DNA of 64,000 nucleotides from Melioribacter roseus (GTDB lineage Bacteria; Bacteroidota; Ignavibacteria; Ignavibacteriales; Melioribacteraceae): the NCBI GenBank assembly GCA_020722005.1, contig DYLP01000010.1, forward strand, positions 1 through 64,000, in the 5' to 3' direction. The translations under genes were made by a program, and so were the position numbers. The notes below the pieces were generated by a model. That model did not search any database, was not told where the DNA came from, and was given only the letters and a program-made list of their open reading frames with translations. Of the stretch, positions 4,894 through 12,869 are shown piece by piece; within the stretch, counting starts at the first letter, position 1, and each line of letters starts with the position of its first letter.

Positions 4894-7800
4894 TTATTTT
4901 AAAAGGAGCATTTTGCGGGTAATTATTTTTTCATTTGTTTTCAGCTGGTAAAAATAAATTCCGCTTGCCAAATTCGAAGCATTAAATCGTACTTCGTAAT
5001 TGCCCGGATTCTGTCTTCCATTAACTAGTGCTTTAACTATTTGCCCGGTCAGGTCGTATATAATCAATTTAACGTTACTTTGGGCAGGCAGAGAATAATT
5101 GATTTTAGTTTCCGGGTTAAATGGATTTGGGTAATTTTGTGATAAAGAATATTCTGAGGGTATTTCGTTGTTACTGGAATTAGACTCATCAACGGAAGTA
5201 ATTATATCGGGCATCCAGCTATATCCAAAGTTCGGATGAGAATCTTTCGAGAAGATCTTTTCTATTGTATAATTACGTGCTTCTTCGTCCGAAAGCTGTC
5301 GGGCAATTGATGTGAGTCGTTTAGTAGTGTCGGCGCCGGGTCCGTAACATTTATATTCAGCGTATAATGCCGGCGTAACATTCCACGTAGACCAGCCTGC
5401 TGGATTTAACGACGCCGGTTCATAGCAATTAATAAAAACTGTTCTCGGTTTATCCTGCCAGGGTCTGCCCAGAACGAAAGTTGTAATCGGTCTTCCGTCG
5501 AAACCTATTGAATCTGCTGAAATAATACAGTCTTTAAACACATAACCATATTTCGACACAGCTTCGGTACTGGCAGCTGTAAGAGTTCCTCCTTCACGAT
5601 TAATATGAATTCCGCAAGAATCAAAGAGAACAATATCTCTGCCGAATATAAAATCAACAGAACCTTCGATGTAACAATTCTTCATATAAATTCTTCCGGT
5701 ACCTCTACCTCCCCACGTGTAATAAGTATCCTGATAACCGAGTAGCCTGCAGTTATAATATTGTTGCCTGTCTCCGTTAACTCTCAAAGCTACTGCTTGT
5801 TCACCGCTGCCGTGTGTTCCGTCGTTTTTGATTGTATTTTGAAAAGTTATGTTGATTGCAGTAAAATCGTCGGCGTCAATTGCCACGCTATACGATTTTG
5901 ACGTTCCCAGATTGTTTTTTCCTGCATAATCGTCGTATGTAAGAATCGTGCTGTCCCTATCCTCGCCTTCCAATATAACATTTGTTTTTGTTGAAGGGAG
6001 TAAAAGTTTTTCGTAGTAAATTCCTTTCTTCACAAAAATTTTGTATTTACCCGTATAATAATCCGGCACGTCGTCAAAAGCAGCCTGAACGGATGTATAA
6101 TCACCCGTACCGTCGAGTGCAACAATCTTGGTTACATCTGGAGCGGGTTCCTGTGTTGTAAAAGAAAATTCTTCGCCGTAACCTGTACCAATACTATTTG
6201 TCGCATAAGCTCGTATGTAATAGGTGGTATTCGGTTCAAGAGGATACATTATACTTTTGAACGTACCAAGTCCACTACCATTTTCCGTTTTATTATCGTT
6301 AACTGTTGGATTTCCTTTTGTATTCCAGCAAACACCGCGGACTATGACCGTATCGCCTCCCCATTTTTCTACAGTTCCTCCGGTTACAGCGGTTTTGGTC
6401 ATAATTTCGGTAACCTCTGAGGTTGTAACCGTAGGCACCATTAACGAATCGAGCGTTTCGAATTCCACTTCATTTCCATAAGCAACACCTGCATCATTAA
6501 TTGCATATGCGCGGACGTAATATTTGGTACCTGGTTGCAGTCCCGTTAATTTACTTACGAACGTTCCCGAGCCGCCACCGTCATCAGTTTTGAAGTCGTC
6601 GATAGTCGGGTTACCAGTAATATTCCAGCAAACGCCGCGCATGGTAACTACTGCTCCTCCATCGGAAGGAATGTTACCGCCACCTGTAGCAAACGTTGTT
6701 GATATATCCGTTATTTCAGAAGTTACAACTTCGGGAGGATCAGCGGTAACTCCTAAAACATTGCCGTATATCATCACGCTGTCGACTGCGATTAATTTTG
6801 CCCATCCTTCAGCTTTTGTATTATGAGGATAAATTAGTAGATAGAATGATTCGCCTGTATTTATGGTCTCTTCGAGTTTAGCTCCAAATTTTGCAATCTT
6901 ATTTCCAGGCAGTGAAGTATCTGCAATCAATACAGTTTTGTTGATAAATGTAGAATCTTTCGAATAATATACTTCTGCTCTTAAATTACTCGAAAACCAT
7001 CCGCCCAGATAAAATGAAACAGAATCGACATAAAGTGTACCGCCAAATTTTGGTTTAATTGAATATCCGAAATAGAGTGAATCGGTTGGTAACGGTTCTG
7101 CATACCATTCTTTCGAGACTGTTTGAACAGCCCCTCCCGTATGTTCGCCACCTTCTGTATCGGGAAGCTTTGTAGTACCGTAAAATTTCATTGCACTGCT
7201 GTAAAATGGTTTTTGAGCAAGTACGGGTCCTGTCGATTCCCATTCTTCGCCTGTTTCATAAGGCCATAGTACATTTGACGAAACCGGACTCCCTTCCACT
7301 TCTCCGGCAATAAGAATATTTTGGAGGCACAAGTATTTACCGGTTTTTACCGATGGGTCTTCGTTCCACGGATAAACTCTAAAATAAAATTTTTGACCCG
7401 GCATCACTTTAACGTTAAGGTCAAAAGCAAAACTTTCGAGCGCTGTAGCATTTAAATAATTATTCCCACTCTGGTCGCTTGTATGATATTCGAGTTTTAC
7501 TGCATTTGAAAAATCAGAATTTGTGGAATACCATAAATTGGCTTTAAAGGTACTTGAACTTTTTGCGCCCATATCGAGGCTCAATGAATTAATATAAAGA
7601 GTATAGCCTGCTTTAGGAGCTACTGTAAACTGAACATATACCGTGTCGATCTGGTCGGTTAAATTAGCAGGCCAGGTATTATTAGTGTTAGCCATACGAA
7701 TTCTTTGGCTATTGTTTGACCCGGTATAGCCGTTAATTTCTGTATTTACAAAAAGTTCTTCTTCGGCTACGACCTGTCCGGTAGTAACAACGCTGAATCC

Positions 7801-8472
7801 CGTTCCCCCCTCGTCGGGATTTGTAAGAGGCCAGGAAGCGCTTGCTGGATATGTAATGCCTTTTGTTTCACCCCAGATAATAACGTCCTGCACATAAAGA
7901 TATTTGGATGTTGAAGGCGAGCCTTCGTACCAAGGATAAATGCGCACATAGAGAGTGTCGCCGTCGTTTACCTTTTCATTAATTCGGAAAGAGAAAAGCG
8001 TATCGCTTCCGTTGCCCAGCACAAGTGGATTTTCGTTTAATTTTTTCGGATTGTCAAACGAGAAATTTAAATCGTAGACGACATCGGCACGCATATAACT
8101 TGTACCGCCACCGCCGAGATACATTGAGACTGAATCGGCATAAAATGTAAAGTTGGGTTTAGGAACGACTGCAAATTGCACCCATCTCGAAGCGACAGGT
8201 CCTGTTTCATTTCCCCATTGTATCGGATTTGTGCCGTCGTGGGGCCACCATCTCTGGTTAGTTCCCAACGGACCCGGACTGCTACCCGAATAACTTCGCA
8301 CTACAAAGCCGGGACTTCCTGTTTCAGGCAAACCAATTAAATTACCCTGAACTACCGAGACATTCTGACTGTCCGGCGGAACGCATTTCCATTCGACAAA
8401 AGATTGACTTTGTGAAAATGCGGTAATGAAAGGAATAAATAAGAAGAGTAAAACGATAAATTTCTTTTTCAT
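4894..8472 (-). CDS. multidomain secreted pectinesterase (CE8) with type IX sorting domain
   Basis: Exported 1192-residue pectin methylesterase, removing methyl groups from homogalacturonan outside the cell. ATG 8472 is preferred over GTG 8478 because the protein then opens with the signal peptide MKKKFIVLLFLFIPFITAFS and GGGG precedes it. Domains in order: three related modules of about 180 residues (about 28-203, 204-393, 398-573), each with an F/L-Y-x-D/N-S-V/L-S core; two Fn3-like repeats (580-675, 680-775) sharing RGVCWNxxGNPT; the CE8 beta-helix (779-1083) with QAVAL, GYQDTYY (Asp915), VDFIFG (catalytic Asp940) and LGRPW (Arg1003); and a type IX C-terminal domain (1107-1192) starting LSQNYPNPFNPET. 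The three N-terminal modules are unassigned and probably bind carbohydrate. A terminator follows the gene. Confidence 0.93.
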   Translation of the reverse strand: MKKKFIVLLFLFIPFITAFSQSQSFVEWKCVPPDSQNVSVVQGNLIGLPETGSPGFVVRSYSGSSPGPLGTNQRWWPHDGTNPIQWGNETGPVASRWVQFAVVPKPNFTFYADSVSMYLGGGGTSYMRADVVYDLNFSFDNPKKLNENPLVLGNGSDTLFSFRINEKVNDGDTLYVRIYPWYEGSPSTSKYLYVQDVIIWGETKGITYPASASWPLTNPDEGGTGFSVVTTGQVVAEEELFVNTEINGYTGSNNSQRIRMANTNNTWPANLTDQIDTVYVQFTVAPKAGYTLYINSLSLDMGAKSSSTFKANLWYSTNSDFSNAVKLEYHTSDQSGNNYLNATALESFAFDLNVKVMPGQKFYFRVYPWNEDPSVKTGKYLCLQNILIAGEVEGSPVSSNVLWPYETGEEWESTGPVLAQKPFYSSAMKFYGTTKLPDTEGGEHTGGAVQTVSKEWYAEPLPTDSLYFGYSIKPKFGGTLYVDSVSFYLGGWFSSNLRAEVYYSKDSTFINKTVLIADTSLPGNKIAKFGAKLEETINTGESFYLLIYPHNTKAEGWAKLIAVDSVMIYGNVLGVTADPPEVVTSEITDISTTFATGGGNIPSDGGAVVTMRGVCWNITGNPTIDDFKTDDGGGSGTFVSKLTGLQPGTKYYVRAYAINDAGVAYGNEVEFETLDSLMVPTVTTSEVTEIMTKTAVTGGTVEKWGGDTVIVRGVCWNTKGNPTVNDNKTENGSGLGTFKSIMYPLEPNTTYYIRAYATNSIGTGYGEEFSFTTQEPAPDVTKIVALDGTGDYTSVQAAFDDVPDYYTGKYKIFVKKGIYYEKLLLPSTKTNVILEGEDRDSTILTYDDYAGKNNLGTSKSYSVAIDADDFTAINITFQNTIKNDGTHGSGEQAVALRVNGDRQQYYNCRLLGYQDTYYTWGGRGTGRIYMKNCYIEGSVDFIFGRDIVLFDSCGIHINREGGTLTAASTEAVSKYGYVFKDCIISADSIGFDGRPITTFVLGRPWQDKPRTVFINCYEPASLNPAGWSTWNVTPALYAEYKCYGPGADTTKRLTSIARQLSDEEARNYTIEKIFSKDSHPNFGYSWMPDIITSVDESNSSNNEIPSEYSLSQNYPNPFNPETKINYSLPAQSNVKLIIYDLTGQIVKALVNGRQNPGNYEVRFNASNLASGIYFYQLKTNEKIITRKMLLLK

Positions 8473-8495
8473 AAACACCCCATTTGAGTTAGTTA

Positions 8496-8524: not shown

Positions 8525-8615
8525 TAAAGTTATCGATTAAGTACTTTTAAATAAAGCTTTTTTCGACCAAAAGGGAAATTTGAAAGTTAAAATGGATTTT
8601 TTTGCGGTGAAATTA

Positions 8616-9407
8616 TCAAAACGATGCAGACATTTTATTTAATGCTTCTTTGTAGTTTCTGCTCATCTTTAATTTAACGCCCGATTTTAGAATAACGAGA
8701 TAATCTCCGTGGTCGCCTGTAACCAGCCTATCTATCATCTCAATATTTACAATAATCGACCTGTGTATTCGAACAAATTTTGATGGATCGAGTTTCTTTT
8801 CGATAATGTGAAGTCTACCCCGCTCCAGAAATTTCTCCTCCCGTGTAAAAATGTTCAGATAGTCGCCTTCCGCTTCAATATATTCAATATCGTCTACGTC
8901 GATTAATTTAATTACGTTCTTACGTTTGATTGTAATCCTTCTAAGATAATCTCTATCTTTGAATTGGTTTCTGACTACCGAATTAAAGTACTCATCAATC
9001 AATTTTTTGATGCTTGAGCCATATTCTCGCTGATTGTTTTTTTCAATTAGTTCGAGTGCATATTTAACAGCGGCGTCAAATCTCGATGTATTTATTGGTT
9101 TCAATAAATAATCCGTAGCGTGTACTTCGAAAGCCTGCAAAGCATATTTATCGTACGCAGTTACGAATATGACCACTGGAATTTCTTCTGCTTTCAACCT
9201 CTTGAGCATCTCAAAGCCACTCATACCGGGCATTTGAATATCCAGAAAAACAAGTTCGGGTTTATACTTATTAATTGCGCTTATGCCCTCCTTCCCATCG
9301 CTGCATTCGGCAACAACACTAATATTGTTAAACTTTTTCAAACGGAGAAGAATCCCTTCGCGGGCGTGCTCTTCGTCGTCTATAATAATCGCTTTGATAT
9401 CGGACAT
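8616..9407 (-). CDS. LytTR-type response regulator
   Basis: 263-residue response regulator. The N-terminal receiver (about 1-125) has the acidic pair Asp10/Asp11, phospho-acceptor Asp56 in VFLDIQMPG and the KP motif in LLKPINTSRF. The C-terminal LytTR DNA-binding domain (about 160-260) shows IEYIEAEGDYLNIFT and FVRIHRSIIVNI. It is the partner expected for a LytS-type kinase, and lies directly after two LytS-like genes with 1-base gaps, so kinase, pseudokinase and regulator are co-transcribed. Target genes are not visible; the serine hydrolase and heme protein upstream are candidates. The divergent start region between this operon and the pectinesterase is short. Confidence 0.92.
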   Translation of the reverse strand: MSDIKAIIIDDEEHAREGILLRLKKFNNISVVAECSDGKEGISAINKYKPELVFLDIQMPGMSGFEMLKRLKAEEIPVVIFVTAYDKYALQAFEVHATDYLLKPINTSRFDAAVKYALELIEKNNQREYGSSIKKLIDEYFNSVVRNQFKDRDYLRRITIKRKNVIKLIDVDDIEYIEAEGDYLNIFTREEKFLERGRLHIIEKKLDPSKFVRIHRSIIVNIEMIDRLVTGDHGDYLVILKSGVKLKMSRNYKEALNKMSASF

Positions 9408-9408
9408 A

Positions 9409-10362
9409 TTATATCTTCCGGAAAGTGTTTGTAATTGTCAATATTTTGTTTTCTAATTTTATTTCCAGATAATTGTCGTTTTCCAATTTTATAATTTCAC
9501 AATTATTTGCATTTGGGTCTGTCGTCCTATTCTTTTGCAGCAAATTTATTACCGCACAAAAGAATGAATAAGTAGGTAGTTTCTTTTCGCCTATAATATC
9601 AACTCCAACCGTTATGAGTTTGATGTTTTCATCGAATAATATTTTTCTTAAATCGATATACTTTTTAATAAGTAAAACCTGTGAATTAATATCAATATAG
9701 TTTTCTTCATTATAAAGTATCAATCTTATATAATCGCTCAGTTCGGTCAATATTTCTTCGGCAAGTTTGTATTCCGAATTTGCAATTAATAATTTCATTT
9801 TAACCAGAGCATTATCAATCAGCTCGGGTTGAATTTTTGAATGGATATCCGTTAATTCAATCCGTGCAAGCTCTTCCTGGATTTTATAAAGGTTTACTTC
9901 TTTTTCTGTGACCTTATTGCGGGTTTGAATCGAATAAAACGCTGCTAAAAACAATATACACAATCCGTAATCTGTCCATAGTTGAGGATTAACAATTAGC
10001 ATTTTATATAAATTGGAATAATCCGCTTTTTTTATAAAAAACAAATCCGTCTCTCGTTGCAAGAACTGGTGCGTTACAATTAAGAAAGTAAATACTATCG
10101 AAATCAGGGAAGCCTTAAGCAAACGGCTTTCAATCTTTGCGTTAATAATTAAATAACCTGCGATTGCAAATAGTATCAAATACCAATTATAAATCAGATT
10201 CGACATAAAAAGCGAGAAGAAATGCTTTGTTTTATGAAATACAAAATATTCCTGCAGCGTATTTAAGCCTGCAATAAATGTGAGCAATAAAAGAAACGGA
10301 AGAAAATATTCAATCTCACGCGATTGACTTTTACTCTCCTGTATATCGTTTTTTGTTTTCAT
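9409..10362 (-). CDS. LytS-like membrane protein lacking the phospho-acceptor His (pseudokinase)
   Basis: 317-residue protein built like a LytS/His_kinase family member: four hydrophobic segments in residues 18-150, a short coiled stretch, then the dimerisation-helix region. Where the family has PHFxFN the sequence is QPELIDN (178-184), so the phospho-acceptor His is Glu180. The nucleotide-binding half is also degenerate: no PLVENxxxHG motif is found (CAVINLLQKN instead) and there is no G-box, and the protein ends soon after. It therefore looks unable to bind ATP or autophosphorylate. It sits between an intact kinase and the LytTR regulator with 1-base spacings, so it is probably a sensory or inhibitory partner of that kinase. 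The open frame and clean joints argue against random decay. Confidence 0.8.
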   Translation of the reverse strand: MKTKNDIQESKSQSREIEYFLPFLLLLTFIAGLNTLQEYFVFHKTKHFFSLFMSNLIYNWYLILFAIAGYLIINAKIESRLLKASLISIVFTFLIVTHQFLQRETDLFFIKKADYSNLYKMLIVNPQLWTDYGLCILFLAAFYSIQTRNKVTEKEVNLYKIQEELARIELTDIHSKIQPELIDNALVKMKLLIANSEYKLAEEILTELSDYIRLILYNEENYIDINSQVLLIKKYIDLRKILFDENIKLITVGVDIIGEKKLPTYSFFCAVINLLQKNRTTDPNANNCEIIKLENDNYLEIKLENKILTITNTFRKI

Positions 10363-10363
10363 T

Positions 10364-11449
10364 TTAATACGATTTTTTGACTATCGGAATCAACAGTCGG
10401 TTCACAAATCCTTTTTTTGTTTGTTCCGCGTTGAAAATATAGTCGTTTTTGAAGAGGTAAGATAATTGACGTTTCACTATTTTGAGACCAACTCCGTTTC
10501 TTTTCGTTTGGATACCGTTGTTTCCCGTGCAATTGTCTTCCACACCAATTTCAAGTTTATTATTATTTATTCTTGCGAAAATTTTGATAATTCCATCTCT
10601 TCCGGATTTAGATATTCCGTGTCGGATCGAATTTTCAACCAGAGGCTGAATTATAAAGGGAGGAATCAAAAGATGTGATAAATTCGTATCTATTTCATAC
10701 TTTACTTCCAGTCGCTTGCCTAATCGGACTTTTTCAATTTGTAAATAGTTTTGCACAAACGACATCTCTTCTTCGAGGGTAATCAATTTATTCGTTCCTT
10801 CTTCGGCGGCTTTTTGAAACAATAACCTCAGATTTTCAATAACCTCGATTGCTTTTCCTTTCTCTCTTTTTAAGATAAGTGTGGAAATCGTATTGAACGT
10901 ATTAAAAACGAAATGCGGATGGAATTGATTTTTCAGTCGCTTCAAACGCGCAGCCGCAAGTTGGGATTTCAATTTCCACGATTCAATTTCCTCTAGTTGA
11001 TATTTCTTTTGAGATTCAGTTATGCTAATACCGACAGCGATTATAAAATAGACTACCAGATCGACCCATGCCCATTGACTTCTAAATATCCTTTTGTAGA
11101 TCAAAGTTTTCACATCGAGGAAATCGAGAAAGCCGTATATAATTATTGCAGAAAGAATCTGATGCAAAGAAACTATAACTAAAGGTAGCAGTATATACAA
11201 AATCGCTTTACCGCCGATTGTCTTCTTTTCACAACGTATAAACGTTATAAAAATCAAAGGCGTAACGAACAACCAGTAATGCCAGTAAAACAAATTGAAA
11301 GGAATATGCCAAAAGAGACTGAAGTTTTGATTTGCCCCGGGATCAAACACAAAATAATGCTGCATTGCGACTGTAAATGCAATTACAGTCAACGCAAGAG
11401 CTTCAATTATTAAAAGGCGCAAATAATATTCGTTTTTCGATTTTATCAT
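10364..11449 (-). CDS. LytS-family sensor histidine kinase
   Basis: 361-residue sensor kinase of the His_kinase (LytS/YehU) family. Four membrane helices occupy about residues 10-145. The dimerisation/phosphorylation motif is NQFHPHFVFNTFNTI with His179. The ATP-binding domain keeps PLVENSIRHGISK and a C-terminal GVGLKIVKRQL. It should phosphorylate the LytTR regulator encoded two genes on. Its start overlaps the stop of the serine hydrolase by 4 bases (ATGA). There is no extracellular sensor domain, so the signal is probably sensed in the membrane or passed by the adjacent pseudokinase. Assignment of family and activity is firm; the stimulus is unknown. Confidence 0.92.
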   Translation of the reverse strand: MIKSKNEYYLRLLIIEALALTVIAFTVAMQHYFVFDPGANQNFSLFWHIPFNLFYWHYWLFVTPLIFITFIRCEKKTIGGKAILYILLPLVIVSLHQILSAIIIYGFLDFLDVKTLIYKRIFRSQWAWVDLVVYFIIAVGISITESQKKYQLEEIESWKLKSQLAAARLKRLKNQFHPHFVFNTFNTISTLILKREKGKAIEVIENLRLLFQKAAEEGTNKLITLEEEMSFVQNYLQIEKVRLGKRLEVKYEIDTNLSHLLIPPFIIQPLVENSIRHGISKSGRDGIIKIFARINNNKLEIGVEDNCTGNNGIQTKRNGVGLKIVKRQLSYLFKNDYIFNAEQTKKGFVNRLLIPIVKKSY

Positions 11450-12429
11450 TTATTGTTAAGCAAGAACTTATCAATCAAATCGAATATCATATAAGTTGAG
11501 CCAAGCACATTCCATCGGGAAGTGTTAACAACAACCATTTTTAATTCTGGTATTACAATTAAGAATTGTCCTCCCCATCCAGCAGCCAGATAAGAATTAT
11601 ATTTATCAAATTTTCGCGTATGCCAGTGATATCCGTAACCGCCGATTTGTTCGAATCCGTCAAAATATTTTCTGGTCGATTTCTCAATCCACTTATCGCT
11701 TACTATCACCTTATTTTCCCACACTCCTCTGTTCAGTAACATAATTCCGATTTTTAGCAGGTCTTTCGGCTTCATCCACAGTTCAGAATTTCCTTTATAA
11801 ATTCCGTCTCTGGCTTTCGACCATTTTATGTCGTTAATTCCAAGTGGGTTAAATAAGTATTTGCGTGCAAATTCGAGAGTACTCATTCGTGATGTCCGTG
11901 TAATTATGACAGAAAGCAAGTGGGACAATCCACTGTTGTAATTCCATTTATCACCCGGATTATTTACAAGCGGGATATTTTGAATTAAGTATCGCGATGG
12001 ATTTTCGCTTTTGTCCCATCCACTTCTTCTTTTTCCGCCCAAATTATTCCACTGGAATCCGGCAGACATCGTAAGCAAATCTCGAACGGTTATCTCAAAT
12101 TTGCGTTTATCCCTAACTCCTTCAAATAATTCGGGTAACAGCTCCGACACTTTTACACTCTCACTTACTATATATCCTTTGTCGATAGCAATGCCAATCA
12201 GGAGTGAAACAATACTCTTGGTTACCGATTTAAGATTGTTCAACTTTTCCGGATTAAAATTATTAAAGTAGTTCTCGTAGAGAATATTTCCGTTTTTATA
12301 GATTATAACTGAGTGAGTTAACGGATTTCTTTCGTTATACTCTTTTACGTATCGTTCTATTAATTCAGTCTGCGCGTATAGACTCGTCATACTAATAATA
12401 AACACCATATAATTTTTTATAAGTTGCAT
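11446..12429 (-). CDS. exported serine hydrolase, beta-lactamase/PBP4* family
   Basis: 327-residue beta-lactamase-fold serine hydrolase with a signal peptide (MQLIKNYMVFIISMTSLYAQ). Catalytic motifs: SxxK as SVTK (Ser68-Lys71), YxN as YNS (164-166), and a C-terminal AAGWGGQ in place of the HxG/KTG box. Such proteins act as esterases, D-aminopeptidases or peptidoglycan-related hydrolases; true beta-lactamase activity is not indicated. Transcribed from a heme-binding protein gene upstream (14-base gap) into the LytS kinase (4-base overlap), so hydrolase and signalling genes form one unit. The hydrolase may generate or remove the ligand sensed by the kinase; that is inference. Confidence 0.85.
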   Translation of the reverse strand: MQLIKNYMVFIISMTSLYAQTELIERYVKEYNERNPLTHSVIIYKNGNILYENYFNNFNPEKLNNLKSVTKSIVSLLIGIAIDKGYIVSESVKVSELLPELFEGVRDKRKFEITVRDLLTMSAGFQWNNLGGKRRSGWDKSENPSRYLIQNIPLVNNPGDKWNYNSGLSHLLSVIITRTSRMSTLEFARKYLFNPLGINDIKWSKARDGIYKGNSELWMKPKDLLKIGIMLLNRGVWENKVIVSDKWIEKSTRKYFDGFEQIGGYGYHWHTRKFDKYNSYLAAGWGGQFLIVIPELKMVVVNTSRWNVLGSTYMIFDLIDKFLLNNK

Positions 12430-12443
12430 AAATTAAGCAACTG

Positions 12444-12869
12444 TTAATAGCCGGTCGCCCATTTTTTAATAATATTTTTTTTGACAAAATCGAGTCTCGC
12501 GTTAGGTCTGCTTAAAGTATAAACGGCTTTCGGCATTTCGTCGTTTTCAACTTCTTCCCATAATTCTTTCTTGAGATGTAATTTCTTATTTGTATCGTAC
12601 GTCTCCCATTCAGAAAAATTTAATTCACTTCTCCCCTTCTTCACGTCTTTTTCGATCAGAAAAGAAATTGGTGCGATGTAAGAATACCAGGGCCATTTAG
12701 TTTCGTTCGAATGACAGTCGTAACACGATTCTTTTAATATTTTTTTAACTTCCTGAGGTGCTTTCAAATCGCCTTTTACCATCGGGTTTTTACGGTCTAC
12801 CTTAATAAATTGAATGCCAATTAAACCCACTGTCAGTATAACGATGAATATTTTTATATAAAATTTCAT
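12444..12869 (-). CDS. membrane-anchored heme-binding domain protein
   Basis: 141-residue Haem_bd family protein. A single N-terminal hydrophobic helix (about 4-21) anchors it, and the rest is periplasmic. The heme-attachment motif CYDCH (Cys49, Cys52, His53) is followed by the family hallmark SNETKWPWYSYIAP. A later Met in NDEMPKAVYTL may be the second axial ligand. A strong Shine-Dalgarno (GAGGA) fixes the start. It leads the minus-strand operon with the serine hydrolase and LytS kinase. It requires a cytochrome c maturation system; a CcmE-like protein at 29836 is the only related gene in this window. Electron partner unknown. Confidence 0.87.
   Translation of the reverse strand: MKFYIKIFIVILTVGLIGIQFIKVDRKNPMVKGDLKAPQEVKKILKESCYDCHSNETKWPWYSYIAPISFLIEKDVKKGRSELNFSEWETYDTNKKLHLKKELWEEVENDEMPKAVYTLSRPNARLDFVKKNIIKKWATGY

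Follow-up and report, generated by a model that had tools for sequence, protein, structure and literature searches.

The window, a stretch of 64,000 nucleotides of Melioribacter roseus, encodes a two-component system whose sensor probably combines an active LytS-type kinase with a dedicated pseudokinase subunit. Histidine kinases are usually pictured as homodimers of identical active subunits. In our main reading, to which we assign a probability of roughly 0.6, kinase and pseudokinase form a heteromeric, polysaccharide-responsive sensor that controls a pectinesterase gene via a LytTR regulator. The sequences themselves show that the pseudokinase has lost catalytic residues, arose once, is inherited with the kinase and is under purifying selection, and that gene order and a repeat before the pectinesterase gene are conserved. 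That the two proteins assemble physically, that the pseudokinase modulates the kinase, what the ligand is and that the target is activated and not repressed are inferred. The heteromer is proposed because the genes are co-inherited and coupled and because the membrane and dimerisation parts of the pseudokinase are retained; a coupled operon by itself is no proof of a kinase-pseudokinase complex.

On the minus strand, the genes of the kinase (10364..11449), the pseudokinase (9409..10362) and the response regulator (8616..9407) follow one another, the last encoding a protein with a receiver domain (PF00072) and a LytTR DNA-binding domain (PF04397). Single intergenic bases at 10363 and 9408 separate the pseudokinase gene from the kinase and regulator genes, respectively, in agreement with the one-base spacing to both neighbours claimed in the sequence-only reading. 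The frame 9409..10362 is intact, as also claimed there, and the corresponding frames are open in 17/17 loci. PF06580 has three matches in the whole genome, namely the kinase, the pseudokinase and one further protein; kinase and pseudokinase of the window share 26% identity over 202 residues. Two further genes upstream (11446-12869, minus) form one apparent operon with the sensor genes. One of them (11446..12429) encodes a serine hydrolase that belongs to the beta-lactamase fold family (PF00144) and overlaps the start of the kinase gene by 4 bases; the other (12444..12869), with which the presumed operon of Melioribacter-type loci begins, encodes a small haem-binding-domain protein (PF14376). 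Among the loci compared, the serine hydrolase is confined to Melioribacter-type loci: it is supported by Pfam in the window, G001, G007 and G038, and in G050 a frame 5' of the kinase is similar to it in size only. The haem-binding-domain gene precedes it in four of the five Melioribacter-type loci (window, G001, G038, G050). Both proteins may have a bearing on the signal.

By motif, the kinase of the window is active. It carries His179 (codon CAT, 10915-10913), the N-box VENSIRH and the second G-box GVGL, and matches PF06580 with 77.6 bits and HATPase_c with 20.2 bits, the latter under its cut-off of 26.4 bits. Kinase and regulator together have the hallmarks of a LytS/LytTR two-component pair, with His, N and G boxes in the one and a phospho-acceptor Asp in the other; this Asp56 is invariant among six aligned orthologues. 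The pseudokinase matches PF06580 with 39.7 bits (cut-off 25.2) and has no HATPase_c match in Pfam. The residue that aligns with His179 is Glu180, encoded by GAG (9825-9823), and alignment and codon thereby bear out the replacement of the phospho-acceptor His by Glu claimed for the middle gene. The claimed loss of the N- and G-boxes stands in part. The G-boxes are gone, with loss of the ATP-binding Asp and of both Gly of the second G-box, and the C-terminal ATPase part is short. At the N-box the flanking Glu and His are lost and one Asn still aligns, for which reason a complete loss of the N-box was dropped.

The same pattern extends to all 17 pseudokinases compared. Their phospho-acceptor position holds Gln in eight, Glu in two (window and G001), Thr in two, Ser in two, and Ala, Asp and Asn in one each. 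His is found there in 0/17 pseudokinases, in 17/17 partner kinases and in all six single LytS kinases. The N-box Asn is present in four of the pseudokinases (window included), the Asp in two and Gly321 in none; N273, D305, G319 and G321 occur together in no pseudokinase, and each is kept in every one of the 17 partner kinases. The concern that a catalytic motif had gone undetected is answered by this comparison, as 0/17 pseudokinases have an intact catalytic set. As background we used 102 distinct LytS-type frames from loci fetched by similarity to this system, which therefore are not a random LytS sample; 85 have His, and the 17 non-His frames are exactly the 17 pseudokinase orthologues. Judged by motif, the pseudokinase is catalytically dead.

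The kinase-pseudokinase-LytTR order, whose conservation across Ignavibacteria the sequence-only reading had proposed to check, is found in 17 loci of 15 genomes from four families within the class; 14 of these genomes are among the 391 class genomes, and G050 is the fifteenth. With one protein as the query against 97 genomes, including that of the window, orthologues were found in G001 (76% identical), G007, G038, G050 and G035. A profile built from six pseudokinases (A2) was run on the 391 class genomes at E<=1e-12 and has some match in 193 of them, with the best five candidates per genome scored, by which a weak copy could be missed. The resulting list has a break: pseudokinases score E<=6.6e-47, partner kinases 5.5e-46 to 2.6e-31, and the first single kinase 7.3e-32. 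Occurrence of the system is patchy, with 14/391 genomes in the class as a whole, 4/32 in the family of G314 and 4/13 in the family of G103. In a scan of 395 genomes of the phylum all strong matches fall inside the class, and the best match outside (1.4e-54, G591) is of partner- or single-kinase strength. Distances between the genes are -29 to +20 bases in the eleven loci from other families and similar in the family of the window, and the gap between pseudokinase and regulator is -4 in nine of ten loci measured.

Kinase and pseudokinase are inherited together. The partner-kinase profile has 16 matches at E<=2.4e-150 in the 391 genomes, all adjoining a pseudokinase, and the next match is at 2.4e-83; no lone partner kinase was found in these class genomes. 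Conversely, the pseudokinase profile gives no strong match without a partner kinase in the class, the phylum set and two families, and the sporadic loss of the pseudokinase alone, named beforehand as evidence that would count against a preserved subunit, is seen nowhere in the genomes searched. The 17/17 copies in which a dead paralogue is kept beside its active sister represent a natural test of what a pseudokinase contributes.

A tree of 40 rows, in which the six single LytS kinases serve as outgroup, resolves all 17 pseudokinases into a clade with support 100/100 and all 17 partner kinases into a second one with 98/96. Both clades persist when the tree is restricted to the membrane columns (100/99 and 97/95) and when the H-box and ATPase columns are removed (100/99 and 98/96). 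The pseudokinase thus appears to have arisen beside the kinase by one duplication, with a single origin. Some rows have long branches, the G279 pseudokinase most of all, and pseudokinases change faster than their kinases. In a comparison of the window with G001 (Nei-Gojobori, 200 bootstraps), dN/dS is 0.198 (0.140-0.290) for the pseudokinase and 0.121 (0.084-0.164) for the kinase, with overlapping intervals; it is 0.054 for the LytTR regulator and 0.045 for the pectinesterase, and dS is near saturation for some genes (2.2 for the regulator). The ratio of synonymous to nonsynonymous change, which had been proposed as a check, thus indicates purifying selection, and relaxation is unseen for the pseudokinase gene as a whole. 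Degradation of all catalytic motifs and the faster evolution would be expected of a functionless duplicate in decay. Such decay is very improbable, given a dN/dS of 0.198 (0.140-0.290), frames that are open in all 17 loci of four families, one ancient origin and a conserved gene order. The earlier description of a preserved inactive paralogue is strongly upheld by the single clade, the lack of the phospho-acceptor His in 17/17, the constant company of the kinase and purifying selection.

Selection is unevenly spread over the protein. By part, dN/dS of the pseudokinase is 0.14 in the membrane part, 0.21 in the dimerisation part and 0.32 in the ATPase part; the membrane part of the kinase has 0.125. 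Sequence identity was compared for 16 of the 17 pairs, G394 left out. In the ATPase part, pseudokinases have a mean identity of 0.22 and no invariant column, and partner kinases 0.44 and 16 invariant columns. The dimerisation part of the pseudokinases reaches 0.44 with 5 invariant columns and the membrane part 0.34 with 3. In G394 (L091:6938-8580), the pseudokinase of 276 aa ends ahead of the ATPase part and is directly followed by an intact LytTR regulator frame, which is apparently an independent loss of the ATPase part. The pseudokinases have thus kept their membrane and dimerisation modules and given up the ATPase.

This pattern bears on the question of what the pseudokinase binds. The dimerisation domain of kinases is the docking place of regulators. 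The pseudokinase could, similar to DivL, use its dimerisation domain to bind the LytTR regulator, or the phosphorylated form of it, as feedback sensor, decoy or phosphatase. DivL itself is a known precedent (PMC4211667), the pseudokinase gene is coupled to the regulator gene, and the dimerisation domain is the best conserved part of the protein. We nevertheless regard regulator binding of this kind as unlikely, since the membrane part of the pseudokinase is constrained almost as in the kinase (0.14 vs 0.125), which regulator binding alone does not need, and since the ATPase part is absent in G394 and shortened in the genus of the window while DivL keeps its ATPase motifs. The pseudokinase could also be an independent second receptor, a homodimer with its own output that is merely co-expressed with the kinase. 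Pseudokinases and kinases do form distinct clades, and their interaction is one that we infer. An independent receptor is still decidedly improbable, as the pseudokinase never occurs without its partner in the genomes searched, its ATPase output part is left without an invariant column, and Pfam finds no other output domain in it.

Membrane helices had been claimed for the pseudokinase and are found by both approaches, with three in the window by hydropathy, which gives four in most orthologues, and four in the AlphaFold2 model. The AlphaFold2 models, each from four sequences, place four membrane helices ahead of the dimerisation helices (pLDDT 65.5 for the pseudokinase, 61.4 for the kinase). 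Their confidence is moderate and too low for interface claims, and the pseudokinase model was used for the helix count only. In the kinase model there is a late helix at 320-333 with strands after it, both of which the shorter pseudokinase lacks. A fold search with the pseudokinase model gives nothing at E<=0.001, with histidine-kinase cores among the weak matches. Co-evolving contacts between the partners are not claimed here, because distances to the own and to a foreign partner are nearly equal in the membrane part (0.201 vs 0.194). Among solved structures, a sequence search with the pseudokinase profile finds only the kinase domain of GanS from Geobacillus stearothermophilus (PDB 6swj; E 5.2e-16). 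GanS has a role in galactan sensing and to our knowledge is not described as a pseudokinase.

The system shares with the LytS/LytTR systems BtsS/BtsR, YpdA/YpdB and LytSR a PF06580 kinase, a multi-helix membrane domain, a LytTR regulator, a direct-repeat operator and a near target. Unlike these systems, all 17 loci have a second LytS-type subunit that is catalytically dead and whose gene sits between those of the kinase and the regulator. A few terms tried in the open-licence literature returned no description of a LytS-type pseudokinase, and an earlier account may exist elsewhere. The closest functional precedent would be RocA-CovS of group A Streptococcus. RocA is likewise a membrane pseudokinase of kinase ancestry, and the likeness drawn here is of function only. 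According to PMC7028121, RocA co-precipitates with CovS, a form without the ATPase part still complements, and the association is ascribed to the membrane regions. RocA is an accessory to CovR/S, whereas here kinase, pseudokinase and regulator are coupled genes of LytS type whose products would interact. The phospho-acceptor His is replaced in orthologues of DivL from Caulobacter as well, and DivL works without kinase activity, but it otherwise keeps the H, N, G1, F and G2 boxes and reads DivK-P (PMC4211667), while here the ATPase motifs are lost. RetS of Pseudomonas is a sensor with a degenerate ATPase domain that directly controls another kinase, GacS (PMC5992135); unlike RetS, which has receiver domains and a phosphatase motif, the pseudokinase has no attached receiver domain. 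In Corynebacterium, a ChrS frameshift pseudokinase that is ATPase-dead alters the signalling of the paralogous kinase HrrS (PMC9491836); this variant stems from laboratory evolution, whereas the pseudokinase here is ancient and natural.

The sequence-only reading had missed that the three genes belong to a wider unit with a downstream pectinesterase and a conserved tandem repeat ahead of its gene. In the window, a secreted pectinesterase (4894..8478, minus; PF01095 204 bits, C-terminal sorting domain PF18962 44.6 bits) follows the regulator and is its predicted target. A pectinesterase gene (PF01095) comes next to the regulator gene on its downstream side in 13 of the 17 loci, namely in the window, G001, G007, G038, G050, G035, G201, G103, G122, G314, G259, G380a and G148, where G148 rests on a local profile and the other twelve on a Pfam scan. 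PF18962 is present in 10/12 of the Pfam-scanned proteins; the exceptions are short (G259) or cut by the contig end (G380a). Further carbohydrate genes adjoin some loci: a GH28 polygalacturonase lies directly 5' of the kinase in G314, G259 and G380a, GH43 is found in addition in G314 and G259, and a glucuronate isomerase further along in G259. In the remaining four loci, a TonB-plug receptor takes the place of the pectinesterase in G380b, the contig of G394 ends within the start of the frame after the regulator, and no pectinesterase or other carbohydrate gene was identified adjoining the system in G380c and G279.

The tandem repeat has a 20-21 bp period with a consensus of about CTCCGTTTYRTC and lies directly after the regulator stop, 5' of the pectinesterase. 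In the window, the predicted LytTR operator (8565..8597, minus) consists of two 12-base half-sites with a 21-bp period, ATCCATTTTAAC - 9 bases - TCCCTTTTGGTC, and is located 86 bases 5' of the pectinesterase start. By computation, it has the form of a LytTR operator, a direct repeat of about 20-24 bp period ahead of the putative target gene. Known LytTR sites have two repeats of 9-11 nt with spacers of 11-13 nt and no common consensus, according to PMC4847170. A two-part matrix was tested with the tested locus and its near twin left out and with 500 dinucleotide shuffles. In this test the repeat reaches p<=0.008 in 12 of the 13 pectinesterase loci (window p<=0.004) and fails in G007 (p 0.078), a leave-one-out result that is not fully independent because the training sites were placed by iteration over all 13 loci. 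The matrix site is shifted by one repeat unit in G050 and G259. Among the four loci outside the training, the repeat is found in G394 (p 0.001) and is not significant in G380b, G380c and G279. Over both strands of the window, 8597-8565 (minus) is the top-scoring site with 19.9 vs 14.3 for the next, by a matrix trained with this site included. Two of five single-kinase LytTR control loci also score (p 0.021 and 0.005). The matrix is therefore not specific to this clade, and a repeat unique to the kinase-pseudokinase system was dropped as a claim; such control scores would be expected of a matrix that recognises LytTR sites of any kind.

According to the genome description, M. roseus has two pectin methylesterase genes, Mros0879 and Mros2353, growth on pectin is unconfirmed and another inducer was suggested (PMC3534657). 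As this locus lies near 1.0 Mb of 3.3 Mb, its pectinesterase may be Mros0879. Neither pectin nor the locus-tag stems tried were found in PMC5492636. The system is an evident candidate regulator of one of the two genes, which bears on the unconfirmed growth on pectin (PMC3534657).

For the heteromeric sensor we propose the following mechanism. The pseudokinase would be made in coupled translation with its partner kinase and would assemble with it by way of the membrane domain with its four helices and of the helices for dimerisation. It would then set the kinase output, either by contributing specificity for a ligand or by keeping the kinase inactive or active. Only the kinase would autophosphorylate and pass the phosphate to the LytTR regulator, which would bind the tandem repeats ahead of the pectinesterase gene and control that gene. 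The signal may be a plant cell-wall polysaccharide or a product thereof. More tentatively, and at somewhat less than even odds, the pair could be an ancient obligate hetero-oligomeric receptor, in which the signal is read only by kinase and pseudokinase together, sharing one four-helix sensor fold. The signal of such a pair could be pectin-derived and perhaps shaped by the co-encoded serine hydrolase. If so, a two-component sensor would have a dead subunit as a permanent element of its structure, and the pair would be the bacterial equivalent of receptor kinases that depend on a pseudokinase as partner. Our findings suggest that a dead partner is a built-in part of plant-material sensing in these Ignavibacteria.

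Some loci have additional features. G380 holds three kinase-pseudokinase-LytTR units (L086, L087, L088), one beside a pectinesterase and one beside a TonB-plug receptor. A PspC-domain gene lies ahead of the system in G103, and LiaF-like membrane genes lie ahead of it in G103 and G122 (L083:3152-4404, L089:10018-11966); G122 also has a gene for an MFS sugar transporter that overlaps the start of the kinase gene. The single-kinase LytTR locus of G193 has a direct repeat CACGGTTCATC with a 21-bp period after the regulator (L092:5643-5705, minus), likely a LytTR site with another half-site.
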